DNA of 41,833 nt from a virus: IMG/VR virus record IMGVR_UViG_3300033052_000127, positions 1 through 41,833 of that record; one strand, 5' to 3'. A model generated the notes under the pieces. It saw only the letters and a program-made list of their open reading frames with translations. It was not told where the DNA came from and ran no database searches. This document shows positions 32,153 to 40,178 of this stretch, piece after piece. Each line of letters opens with the position of its first letter. Position 1 is the first letter of the stretch. Both the position numbers and the translations under genes were made by a program.

Positions 32153-32320
32153 CTATGCAGCCGTGGATTGGGCAGCGATGCGTTCGACCTCGGCGCGGCG
32201 CTCGTCAGGGATGCGTTTGCGTAAAAACCACCCTTGGACCGTCGTATGATTTCGATGGCCCAGCTTGCGAGCCGCAGGGCGAATGCCGCCGAGGCGCTCG
32301 AGAAGTTCGATGTCGGTCAT
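32153..32320 (-). CDS. Cro-like / YdaS-type regulator (55 aa)
   Basis: From ATG 32320 the product reads TDIELLERLGGIRPAARKLGHRNHTTVQGWFLRKRIPDERR, a helix-turn-helix of the small Cro/YdaS (carph-isopro-like) class: a GG turn, PAARKLG, TTVQGW recognition region, then RIP. It is divergent from the CI gene and shares the operator region 32325-32400. Cro-type proteins compete with CI to set the lytic choice. The gene has a weak Shine-Dalgarno. Confidence 0.75.
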   Translation of the reverse strand: MTDIELLERLGGIRPAARKLGHRNHTTVQGWFLRKRIPDERRAEVERIAAQSTAA

Positions 32321-32324
32321 TCCG

Positions 32325-32400
32325 TATGCGTACACACTTTGCGTACATCATTCAAGCCCAATTTGTACGCAACTGACGACGTAGATTGTGGACGTACGCC
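32325..32400. promoter_or_regulatory. cI-cro operator cluster (GCGTAC half-sites)
   Basis: Four GCGTAC/GTACGC elements occur between the divergent cro and cI genes: 32328-32333, 32341-32346, 32365-32370 and 32394-32399. TTGCGTACA (32339-32347) and TGTACGCAA (32364-32372) are exact inverted arms. TATGCGTACAC at 32325-32335 recurs exactly in the second cluster (33712-33722). This is the expected place for CI/Cro binding and for the two early promoters, whose -35/-10 boxes I cannot define with confidence. Confidence 0.7.
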
Positions 32401-32416
32401 AACGCATAATGTGGGG

Positions 32417-33124
32417 ATGGCAGACGAATCTACCGGCGAGCGCCTGAAGCGTATTCAGGAGCGCTCAGGACGCTCTTATGCGGAGATCGCAAAGGCGGCG
32501 GGATTGGCTGGCCGATCTTCGGTGCAGCGCTATTTCAGCCCCGAGTTTGACGGTCTGCTATCGGTGACGGTCGCGAAGAATCTGGTGGCAGGCCTCGCTG
32601 GCACAAACATCGACCCAAATGAGATTTGGGAACTGGCCGAGCCGATGCCCAATGTCGCCCCTGCCCCAACGGCACGCCTTGAGACTGACAAGCGAGACTT
32701 GCCAATCTACGGCACCGCTTTGGGCGCGCCGATCGAGTTTGATGGCGTGGCCGTCGAGCAGACGGAGCTACATATGTCGGAAGTGATTGACCGCTATCGT
32801 CGGCCTTCGGCCTTGCGAGGCAGACCAGACGCCTACGGTGTGTATATCCAAGGCTCGTCTATGGCGCCGAGGTTTCAGGAGGGCGAGGTCGCGTTCGTCG
32901 ATCCCAAGCGCCCGCCGCAAGTCGGTGATGACGTGCTGGTTTTTCTTGTGGGCCCAGAGGACGATGGCGAGCGCATGACTGCCTGTCTCATCAAGCGCCT
33001 GGTGAGACGCACCGCCGACTATATCGAGCTGGAGCAATTCAACCCCGGCCAAGCGTTCAGGATCGAACGCGGGCGCGTGTCAAAGGTTCACCGCGTGATC
33101 CCTTGGGCGGAACTACTCGCTTAG
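32417..33124 (+). CDS. CI-type repressor with S24 peptidase-like domain (235 aa)
   Basis: The N-terminal helix-turn-helix lies at residues 8-60 (ERLKRIQERSGRSYAEIAKAAGLAGRSSVQRYF). The C-terminal domain has the LexA/S24 fold with the catalytic Ser148 in QGSSMAPRF and Lys193 in LIKRLVRR. It holds lysogeny by binding the flanking operators. RecA-driven self-cleavage could induce the phage, but I see no clear Ala-Gly cleavage pair in the linker (80-115), so induction by cleavage is uncertain. ATG 32417 is preceded by GTGGGG. Its stop overlaps that of the convergent gene. Confidence 0.88.
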   Translation: MADESTGERLKRIQERSGRSYAEIAKAAGLAGRSSVQRYFSPEFDGLLSVTVAKNLVAGLAGTNIDPNEIWELAEPMPNVAPAPTARLETDKRDLPIYGTALGAPIEFDGVAVEQTELHMSEVIDRYRRPSALRGRPDAYGVYIQGSSMAPRFQEGEVAFVDPKRPPQVGDDVLVFLVGPEDDGERMTACLIKRLVRRTADYIELEQFNPGQAFRIERGRVSKVHRVIPWAELLA

Positions 33125-33303
33125 TCGCACTCGATTTCGTTGATACCAGCCCACATCCAAGGGTCGCTGCAAATTTCCTCGCCGTCTTTCGTGATGGACC
33201 ATCCCAAAAGATAGCCACTATCGCCGATCAGTTGAGCGGCAGCGACGGGAAGCGCGGCAGCGATAGCAACGCCGGTTGCGAGGCCCACGAAAAATTTACG
33301 CAA
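33121..33303 (-). CDS. Small exported protein (60 aa), TTG start
   Basis: TTG 33303, with AGAGG 8 bp upstream, is the best start. The product has a basic N-terminus, a hydrophobic signal-like segment (FFVGLATGVAIAAALPVAAA) with AAA-Q as a likely cleavage point, and a mature part with two cysteines (ICSD and IECD) that could form a disulfide. It directly follows the upstream exported gene and converges with cI, overlapping by 3 bp at the stops. A surface or periplasmic lysogenic-conversion role is plausible. Confidence 0.55.
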   Translation of the reverse strand: MRKFFVGLATGVAIAAALPVAAAQLIGDSGYLLGWSITKDGEEICSDPWMWAGINEIECD

Positions 33304-33304
33304 G

Positions 33305-33607
33305 TTAGTAGCCTCTGGGCTTTGACAGCGGCTTCGGCGGCTTGGGCGGGGTGTAAGTTTGAGGCTTATACTGGTATGGCTGCACTCGGGGCGGCGCGTA
33401 TGGGTCAACCGTCCCCTGCCGCCCCGTGTAGGGATTGTAGTTCGGCGAGGTCGAGTAGTTGTCCAGCGTCGTACTGTTCGGCGAGGTCTTGTAATGGCCC
33501 TGCACATAGGTTCCGTCTGATTTGACATAGGGCTTGACGTAGGTGTCCCTCGCGTCAGCCACGCCCGAAACGAAAACGCTGGCAGCTATCAGAATGGCAA
33601 GCTTCAT
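33305..33607 (-). CDS. Exported Tyr/Pro-rich protein (100 aa)
   Basis: GGGGA lies 6 bp before ATG 33607. A clear signal peptide (MKLAILIAASVFVSGVADA) is followed by repeated Tyr/Pro/Thr motifs (YVKPYVKSDGTYVQGHYKT, YSTSPNYNPYTGRQGTVDPY) and a Pro/Lys-rich tail. This matches a widespread family of small secreted proteins in proteobacteria whose function is unknown. It is adjacent to the second operator cluster and expressed from the lysogenic side, so it is a moron candidate. Confidence 0.75.
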   Translation of the reverse strand: MKLAILIAASVFVSGVADARDTYVKPYVKSDGTYVQGHYKTSPNSTTLDNYSTSPNYNPYTGRQGTVDPYAPPRVQPYQYKPQTYTPPKPPKPLSKPRGY

Positions 33608-33660
33608 AAGATATCCCCTTCCCGGCCATTGTAAGAAATAGGGAGTACATTTCATACGTT

Positions 33661-33722
33661 TAGCGATCGTACGCATTTAGTGTACGTTTTTTGCTTGCAA
33701 GGGCGTACGTATATGCGTACAC
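33661..33722. promoter_or_regulatory. Second operator cluster upstream of the rightward early operon
   Basis: Sites GTACGC (33669-33674), TGTACG (33681-33686), GCGTAC (33703-33708) and GCGTAC (33715-33720) lie in the gap between the divergent exported gene (minus) and the pentapeptide gene (plus). TATGCGTACAC (33712-33722) is identical to 32325-32335. Both directions of transcription could be repressed by CI from here, like lambda OL/OR. A -10-like TATATG is at 33710-33715. Confidence 0.7.
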
Positions 33723-33767
33723 CGTCTCCAGACAGGGCAACACCGTTGCCGAGTTTGGAGATGGAAG

Positions 33768-34337
33768 ATGGCGGTCAGCAAGACGCTTGAGAAGTTCGAG
33801 GTAAGGAACCGCTTCACCAACGCGGTCCAGTTCACCGCAGAGATCGGCGTCACCCCCGGCATGACCTACAGCGTCAAGCTGGGTCTGGCGGTCAAGTGGG
33901 CGGTCAAAGCGCGTGCCAACCTCGCGGATGCCAACCTCGCGGGTGCCAACCTCGCGGATGCCAACCTCGCGGATGCCAACCTCGCGGGTGCCAACCTCGC
34001 GGATGCCAAAAATGCTGACCTCGCTATCGCTCGGACCCGCATTTTGCCCGACGGCGATATCATCGGCTGGAAGAAGTGCCGAAACGACGTGATCGTCAAG
34101 CTGCGCATCCCTGAGGACAGCCCGCGCTCGCATGCCTTCGGTCGCAAGTGCCGCGCCAAGTTCGCTGACGTGCTGGAAATCTTCGGCGCCGACAAGGCTG
34201 TGTCCAGTCACGATCCCAAGTTCACCTACACCGCTGGCGAGCGCGTCGAAGCGCTCAATTGGTCGGACAGTTGGGAAGAGGAATGCGCTGGCGGCGTGCA
34301 CTTCTTCATCAGCCGTCTCGAAGCGGAGGCCTACTGA
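33768..34337 (+). CDS. Pentapeptide-repeat protein with DUF5758 C-terminus (189 aa)
   Basis: GGAG lies 7 bp before ATG 33768. After a 47-residue N-terminus the product has six units ANLAD/ANLAG (residues 50-79), then a DUF5758-type domain: GWKKCRNDVIVKLRIPEDSPRSHAFGRKCRAKFADVL, GGVHFFISRLEAEAY. DUF5758 is found after pentapeptide repeats in phages, with unknown role. Pentapeptide stretches fold as a right-handed beta-helix that can imitate DNA. The first gene of the rightward early operon under the second operator, so it is likely made at once on infection. Confidence 0.8.
   Translation: MAVSKTLEKFEVRNRFTNAVQFTAEIGVTPGMTYSVKLGLAVKWAVKARANLADANLAGANLADANLADANLAGANLADAKNADLAIARTRILPDGDIIGWKKCRNDVIVKLRIPEDSPRSHAFGRKCRAKFADVLEIFGADKAVSSHDPKFTYTAGERVEALNWSDSWEEECAGGVHFFISRLEAEAY
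33915..34004 (+). repeat. Six tandem 15-bp repeats (pentapeptide coding)
   Basis: Units of GCCAACCTCGCGGAT or GCCAACCTCGCGGGT start at 33915, 33930, 33945, 33960, 33975 and 33990. They differ only at base 14, so recent expansion at the DNA level is likely. Copy number can probably change without frame loss. Confidence 0.95.
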
Positions 34338-35206: not shown

Positions 35207-35328
35207 ACGCCTTCAACCATCACCGCCGCTTCGCCCAGCCCCTCACCGGCTATCGAGCCCACTGGTCACTGTACATCATGGCCTTCGGGTTGGCTGTTAT
35301 CCTTACTGTTGTGGGAGTTTCGTCATGA
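35203..35328 (+). CDS. Small single-span membrane protein (41 aa)
   Basis: The N-terminal 20 residues are basic and His-rich (MNAFNHHRRFAQPLTGYRAH), followed by a transmembrane helix at about 23-40 (LYIMAFGLAVILTVVGVS). ATG overlaps on both sides (ATGA). The role in the recombination operon is unknown. Confidence 0.5.
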   Translation: MNAFNHHRRFAQPLTGYRAHWSLYIMAFGLAVILTVVGVSS

Positions 35329-36029
35329 CTGCGCTGCCCAACCTCGCGAAAGTCGCGACCGCCGATCTTGTTGAGAACATCGGCACCGGCAACTTCAAGG
35401 CCAGCTATATCAACTGGTCGCGTACCGTCCACCTGCTGCGCGAACATGCGCCGGGATGGGAGCCTGAAATCGTCCTCAATGCGAACGGCGAGGTTCTTCA
35501 CCGCGCGCCGGTAGGGGCTTTCATGATGCTCCGCTTCCGCAACGGGGAGCGCGTCACCGAGGCGATCCCGCAAGCCGTGATGGACAACCGGAACGCCGCG
35601 ATCCCGTTCGAGCGCATCACCGCCCGCGACATTACCGACACGCACCGGCGCGGTATCTGTCTCGCGGCTGCCATGACCTTCGGGCTCGCCTATGAACTGT
35701 GGGCGAAAATGCCGCTCGAAAAGGGCTTCGCAGACAACGACACCGACGAGCCGAACCGCCAGACCGGAAAGAAGCTGGACGGCAAATATACCAGCATCAC
35801 AGGGCTTGAAAAGGCGATCAAGGTGTTTGCCGTCGAGATGGGCAAGGTCGTAGATATGAACGAATGGTATGTGCTGAAAAACGCGCACGCCGATCTTCTG
35901 GCACAGGCCGAGCGCGATCATCCCGACTGGTGGAATGGCTGGCAGGGTCAGCCGGACGGCTTCACGCCGCTGCGCCGCCGTATCGAGCTTCTGGAAGCGC
36001 AGCTTGCGGAGCAGGAGGCGGCGGAATGA
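35325..36029 (+). CDS. Single-strand annealing protein, Sak/DUF1071-like
   Basis: From ATG 35325 the 234-residue product has INWSRTVHLLREHAPGWEPEIVL, then PVGAFMMLRFRNGERVTEAIPQAVMDNRNAAIPFERITARDITDTHRRGICLAAAMTFGLAYELWAK. This resembles the Rad52-like Sak/DUF1071 family that anneals single strands for phage recombination. An AMTFGLAYELWAK motif ends the core. A charged C-terminal region may bind partner or SSB. It is not a RecT/Bet by motif. NinB and HNH genes follow, which fits a recombination module. Confidence 0.75.
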   Translation: MTALPNLAKVATADLVENIGTGNFKASYINWSRTVHLLREHAPGWEPEIVLNANGEVLHRAPVGAFMMLRFRNGERVTEAIPQAVMDNRNAAIPFERITARDITDTHRRGICLAAAMTFGLAYELWAKMPLEKGFADNDTDEPNRQTGKKLDGKYTSITGLEKAIKVFAVEMGKVVDMNEWYVLKNAHADLLAQAERDHPDWWNGWQGQPDGFTPLRRRIELLEAQLAEQEAAE

Positions 36030-40103: not shown

Positions 40104-40150
40104 TGGTGCTGCTGGAGAGGATTGAACTCTCGACCTCACCCTTACCAAGG
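40104..40150. other. Candidate attachment core (attR) in the tRNA 3' half
   Basis: The integrase stops at 40075 and the tRNA 3' end begins at 40104, so the attR core probably includes the tRNA 3' part. The matching attL must lie left of the window: I found no second copy of the T-arm or 3' acceptor sequence near position 1. Boundaries are inferred. Confidence 0.55.
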
Positions 40151-40178
40151 GTGCGCTCTACCACTGAGCTACAGCAGC
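40104..40178 (-). tRNA. tRNA-Thr (anticodon GGT)
   Basis: The minus strand folds as a full tRNA: acceptor GCTGCTG/CAGCAGC, D arm GCTC-AGTGGTA-GAGC, anticodon stem CACCC/GGGTG with loop TTGGTAA (anticodon GGT), 5-nt variable loop AGGTC, T arm GAGAG-TTCAATC-CTCTC, discriminator A and an encoded CCA (40104-40106). It reads ACC/ACT. Its 3' end faces the integrase, as for phages that insert at tRNA 3' ends and restore the gene. Confidence 0.97.

Follow-up and report, generated by a model that had tools for sequence, protein, structure and literature searches.

The question raised by this locus is whether two groups of half-sites placed on either side of a cI-like gene are the operators of an immunity region of the lambda type. 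The window, i.e., the whole stretch of DNA that was analysed, is 41,833 bp long, corresponds to one virus record of IMG/VR and has a G+C content of 61% overall and approximately 48% in each of the two intergenic stretches that bear the half-sites. Near its end, a tRNA-Thr(ggt) gene (40104-40178) adjoins the integrase gene and is likely the attachment site, and the last gene is a peptidyl-prolyl-isomerase-like host gene (a label given by eye), the best matches of which are 74% identical and come from the family of Sphingomonas sp. PP-CE-1A-559. Thus, the tRNA gene and the host-like end gene mark the window as a prophage with host flank, and the host is most likely a sphingomonad. Pentapeptide, annealing-protein and integrase genes belong to the rightward early operon, which begins with a pentapeptide repeat plus DUF5758 gene (33768-34337, plus strand) and includes a gene for a Sak-type single-strand annealing protein (35325-36029, plus strand) that was recognised from domain and PHROG matches.

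The cI-like gene (32417-33124, plus strand) encodes a repressor of 235 residues with an HTH (GRSSVQRYF) and a Peptidase_S24 domain, and matched the PHROG 4 repressor at 1e-21 across residues 4-230. The Peptidase_S24 match (7e-9) was above cut-off while the HTH_31 match (1.6e-4) was below that of Pfam (22.3 vs 27 bits). The catalytic pair S148 and K193 was invariant in nine relatives. The region expected for S24 self-cleavage (residues 96-106, approximately) reads YGTALGAP and is devoid of an Ala-Gly or Cys-Gly pair; seven better-aligned relatives have [ML]G there, and SOS inducibility of the prophage is judged uncertain from these residues. Sequence searches of PDB for the CI family gave no useful match and no solved structure. 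A cro-like gene of 56 codons lies on the opposite strand (32153-32323, minus strand), and its product, with recognition helix HRNHTTVQGW, gave weak YdaS and P22_Cro Pfam matches below cut-off and was 56% identical to a Cro encoded at the same place in relative L115. Between cI and the second group of half-sites are genes, convergent with cI, for two small proteins of 60 residues (33121-33303, minus strand; PHROG 37095, 8e-17) and 100 residues (33305-33607, minus strand; PHROG 29674, 2.8e-12), the export of which was judged by eye from the N-terminus. The same slot holds unrelated exported or lipoprotein-like genes in other relatives and is empty in L145 and L148.

The first-pass annotation had counted GCGTAC or GTACGC four times in each cluster. 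This count was correct for the cluster between cI and cro, where exact copies start at 32328, 32341, 32365 and 32394, and too high for the cluster ahead of the rightward operon, where exact copies start only at 33669, 33703 and 33715 and the fourth element is a half-site with one mismatch (GTGTACGT, approximately 33681-33687). The hexamer was not enriched in the window as a whole (17 seen vs 16.1 expected) and was therefore dropped as evidence in itself. Its clustering did depart from chance, in that two groups, each of at least three hexamers within 75 bp, arose in one of 500 shuffles. As had also been claimed, the 11-mer TATGCGTACAC is common to both clusters, at 32325 and 33712, and is found nowhere else in the window. 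Its orientation is opposite relative to the two promoters and it was rejected as the functional unit. Since GTAC is self-complementary, a pair of neighbouring half-sites forms a dyad, and the 17-bp dyad GTACRC-N5-GYGTAC has exactly two copies in the 41.8 kb window (32330-32346 and 33669-33685), one to each cluster, whereas none of 500 shuffles contained even one copy. The functional unit is this dyad and the shared 11-mer is a by-product of it.

Because the dyad pattern was drawn up after the sites had been seen, a fair test called for a matrix derived from other phages only. With a matrix trained solely on relatives, the best match in the window was 33669-33685 (18.9), followed by 32330-32346 (16.5) and by a further site in the second cluster, 33682-33698 (14.3); the second-best score never exceeded 13.7 in 500 shuffles.

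When these sites were placed against promoters, the main operators of both groups were found to lie between -35 and -10 boxes. The dyad O_R1 (GTACACACTTTGCGTAC, 32330-32346, matrix 16.5) is within the spacer of a predicted Pcro (32327-32355, minus strand), made up of a -35 TTGAAT (32355-32350), a 17-bp spacer and a -10 TACGCA (32332-32327); this is a weak consensus match that coincides in position with TTGACA-N17-TACATC of L148 and L149. A probable weak operator, O_R2 (TCAAGCCCAATTTGTAC, 32352-32368), has its centre 22 bp from that of O_R1 and corresponds in position to CAACGTNGAAANCGTAC, which is the second operator in L148/L149 and lies at a centre-to-centre distance of 23 bp there. The fifth-best matrix match (7.8-7.9) is a possible O_R3 (GTAGATTGTGGACGTAC, 32381-32397), and a candidate -10 of the cI promoter, CATAAT (32405-32410, plus strand), was read from the sequence; as it ends 7 bp ahead of the cI start codon (ATG), the cI mRNA is possibly leaderless.

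In the second group, the dyad GTACGCATTTAGTGTAC (33669-33685), with the best matrix score in the window, has a half-site in common with the next operator, GTACGTTTTTTGCTTGC (33682-33698), which aligns with GTACGTTTTTGGTTTGA of L149. A 16-bp dyad, O_L1 (GTACGTATATGCGTAC, 33705-33720), aligns with GTACGTTAAATGCGTAC of L149 and is within the spacer of a predicted P_L (33695-33723, plus strand; -35 TTGCAA, 17-bp spacer, -10 TACACC), where L149 has TTGACA-N17-TACACC. A possible outer half-site (GTACATTTCATACGTTT, 33645-33661), the fourth-best matrix match (8.75), overlaps a predicted leftward promoter of the exported genes (33655-33628) for which the scanner score was at about chance level. O_R would thus hold one strong and one or two weak sites and O_L three sites, two of them overlapping. 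Pcro and P_L are predicted promoters that were missed by a generic promoter scanner and recognised solely by comparison with relatives, and it is only through this comparison that their -35 boxes, which match the consensus poorly in the window, are credible. The leader of the P_L transcript would form a hairpin (33722-33764, plus strand; -30.4 kcal/mol, z -6.5), the 3' arm of which carries GGAG before the first gene; five relatives (L145-L149) have a hairpin at this position too, a strong one in most of them but a weak one in L145 (z -1.2). A Shine-Dalgarno-like GGAG in or near the 3' arm was noted in several among the window and these five relatives.

Relatives were gathered by scans with the annealing protein and the helicase and by a two-row CI alignment. 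Single-protein CI scans of viral and genome contigs gave no relatives, and an S24/HTH profile run across the first loci gave only four CIs. One candidate for comparison, L065, was discarded; its helicase is 91% identical, but it does not have this CI and little aligns beyond the helicase. Close relatives by CI HTH numbered ten (L115, L145, L147, L148, L149 and L163-L167, with a host copy of L147 excluded). The window and eight relatives, in all of which the recognition helix of CI reads SS[VI]Q-x-Y or nearly so, formed a set of nine records, and in each of these the densest CGTAC windows were at -90 to -50 from cI and at 0.75-3.15 kb past the cI start, although in L164 the first three half-site windows tie. 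The half-sites are thus conserved on both sides of cI. Only partial clusters were seen in two of the 11 close-HTH records (L166 and L167). Class-level matches with much weaker HTH similarity (L185-L189, 1e-12 to 1e-15) contained no clusters and were treated as a group apart, a split that was made after the clusters had been seen.

Results obtained with leave-one-out matrices pointed the same way: every one of the nine records had a main site at one or both of the positions, and a site was found at both in the window, L115, L145, L148, L149 and L164; the matrix was weak in L147 and L165 and found the downstream group only in L163. At Pcro, all nine records have a TTGA-type -35 followed by a 17-bp spacer with the dyad, and most have a -10 resembling TACAYC. 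The distance from this -35 to cI is 38-41 nt in the relatives as against 62 nt in the window. At the far cluster, most of the nine records have comparable promoters ahead of the rightward operon, and a second, weaker site 22-23 bp away, centre to centre, was present in several.

The connection between the half-site word and the DNA-reading domain of the repressor was evident from relatives in which the two domains of CI have parted. Thus, L148 and L149 have kept the HTH and the GTACG word while the C-terminal domain has diverged (27-28% overall identity), whereas L117 and L150 have kept the C-terminal domain, carry another HTH and do not have the GTACG word. In L117 (record G1008), the 37 kb contain CGGCAGATATGCCG at two positions only, 15205 and 16576, i.e., 1371 bp apart and flanking cI, and in L150 GTGCGCTAGACGCAC is found 25 bp after cI. 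Similarly, L113 (5445-6634) and L116 (4962-6154) have a cI that is flanked by GTGCG-N5-CGCAC dyads, with the second group approximately 1.15 kb from the cro-cI group, past cI and a lipoprotein-like gene. The CI helix is SSVQ in GTACG phages as opposed to RTTATK in L113/L116, and the Cro recognition segment changes from TTVQGW in the former to STVKSW in the latter. Relatives with another HTH therefore keep the layout and change the word, which indicates that the motif follows the DNA-reading domain of the repressor. Because the Cro helix changes along with the word, Cro probably reads the same sites as CI, a correlation drawn from few independent cases. The two-sided frame is thus common to the lineage, and word and HTH are swapped together, a pattern that heteroimmune phages would be expected to show.

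In agreement with the first-pass annotation, which had proposed an arrangement resembling OR/OL, the clusters flank cI in nine records, lie at predicted divergent early promoters and change word with the HTH on both sides, which would be expected if a single repressor reads both clusters; the cI region is very probably an OR/OL immunity region of the lambda type that has an operator specificity of its own. The architecture is already known and the family of operator specificity is new. The sites, their places in the predicted promoters, their two-sided conservation and the covariation of word and HTH come from sequence and comparison. As to mechanism, a CI dimer would recognise the 17-bp dyad through its GTACG half-sites, and the main operator of each group would fill the spacer within an early promoter of the sigma-70 type, leftward for Pcro and rightward for P_L. 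With its operators in these spacers, bound CI would exclude RNA polymerase from both promoters and keep the prophage silent. Neighbouring dimers, with centres 22-23 bp apart, may cooperate, Cro may compete for the operators of CI through its similar recognition helix, and CI tetramers or octamers may bridge both groups into a loop.

Two explanations would place the origin of the clusters outside the immunity system. According to one, they are an effect of chance or of composition in AT-richer intergenic DNA, as might be thought from the low G+C content of both stretches and from the unremarkable number of hexamers in the window. The probability of this is negligible given the shuffle tests, the scores from the held-out matrix and the recurrence of the clusters in nine records, and the relatives already refute it; moreover, CGTAC/GTACG is rarer in the window than simple composition predicts (40 seen vs approximately 90 expected), as it is in other full-length relatives. 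According to the other, the motif is that of a host regulator, the operators of which the phage has borrowed, a reading that draws on strict dyads dispersed outside the cI-like locus in two genomes of one genus, 15 in G113 and four in G322. Against it, the strict dyad was absent from all 60 genomes drawn from the family and from five other members of the genus, and in each of G113 and G322 a single HTH of this type was found, that of a phage-like CI; borrowing from the host is thus very improbable. A reversed control pattern occurred 0-5 times per genome in the same 60 genomes, so that the gap may partly reflect a general shortage of GTAC. The first-pass annotation had named equal abundance of the motif elsewhere as an outcome that would refute its reading; this outcome was not seen, with no further dyad in the window and none in the 60 family genomes.

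The dispersed sites of G113 and G322 (five strict dyads in the latter, including one close to the cI-like gene of that genome) are in promoters of approximately 20 short intergenic units (L190-L208, L212-L223). The units are laid out as TTGACA-N3-(GTACGY-N5-RCGTAC), then GGCTCTTTCTCA, then a conserved tail, ATCATCAAGTTCGTTTCTGGTGTTTTTTT, with a T-run. In G113, TTGAC was just upstream of 14 of the 15 sites, and most were followed by GGCTCTTTCTCA and the tail, which occurs in 21 copies in this genome and in none of 200 other family genomes. An upstream dyad matching at least nine of ten half-site bases accompanied nine of the 12 tails examined in G113, and the units had no Rfam match. The same genome contains a CI relative with both clusters (L163, 6366-7100) in an apparent prophage remnant beside host-like genes. 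It is conceivable, if rather unlikely, that in this one sphingomonad genus a phage-type CI kept in a remnant resembling a prophage now serves as chromosomal regulator of dispersed intergenic units; control by an unrelated regulator, or an element spreading with its own promoter, is as likely for the units of G113.

Two further readings concern which protein acts at the sites and how. Cro might be the main protein that reads the sites, or Cro and CI might each read them in a different order, with the second group serving for shutdown of P_L by Cro late in infection as opposed to repression by CI in lysogeny. That the [ST]TVQGW helices of Cro change with the word, to STVKSW with GTGCG in L113/L116, would fit such a role, but the CI helices covary too (SSVQ vs RTTATK) and both clusters are kept in L163 and L164, where no Cro-like ORF was recognised; a predominance of Cro is accordingly somewhat unlikely, and the two readings are compatible in any case, as lambda employs both proteins on one operator set. 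The groups might also be bridged by CI into a DNA loop of approximately 1.4 kb, which would strengthen repression and tune cI expression. The separation of approximately 1.37 kb in the window (0.8-3.2 kb in relatives) makes looping plausible, since it is within the range of 0.63-2.3 kb of proven loopers (PMC8053113), and each group has at least two operators and the repressor an S24 domain. Spacing varies among relatives, however, both promoters could be repressed without a loop and no sign of tetramers or octamers was seen, and by analogy with these phages looping is a tentative proposal to which we would give slightly less than an even chance. The repressors of lambda (2.3 kb), HK022 (approximately 0.7 kb) and phiKO2 (approximately 0.63 kb) all loop OL/OR in a published assay (PMC8053113).

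Compared with known systems, the immunity region of the window resembles that of phage lambda in several respects: cI and cro are divergent and separated by operators, a further operator group lies past cI at the other early promoter, the operators are dyads of 17 bp, and accessory genes stand between cI and this further group. In lambda, this last position is occupied by rexAB. The window differs from lambda in its GTACG half-site, the shorter separation of its groups, its mirrored strand order, accessory genes that point against cI and the want of a clean set of three operators at O_R. The closest named phage relative by S24 C-terminal domain is the C repressor of Rhizobium phage 16-3 (approximately 34% over residues 76-228), for which no BLAST match was obtained across the CI HTH. 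Phage 16-3 likewise has two operator groups, and its operators have ACAA/TTGT half-sites, different from those of the window. Nothing on Sphingomonas repressor operators or on phage 16-3 operators was found among the papers searched. HK022 and phiKO2 also have two operator groups that flank the repressor gene, 0.6-0.7 kb apart (PMC8053113), but their hosts are enterobacterial, and looping, demonstrated for both, is a proposal for the window.

These results define the immunity operators of a sphingomonad prophage family, from which immunity groups should be predictable from sequence. The words GTACG, GTGCG and CGGCAGATATGCCG, each with a matching HTH swap on one conserved frame, form a natural specificity series and would provide a test set for the CI/Cro recognition code, in which Cro TVQ goes with GTACG and Cro TVK with GTGCG. 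They also extend the OR/OL two-group design, possibly with looping, to phages outside the enterobacterial lambdoid group for which looping measurements exist.
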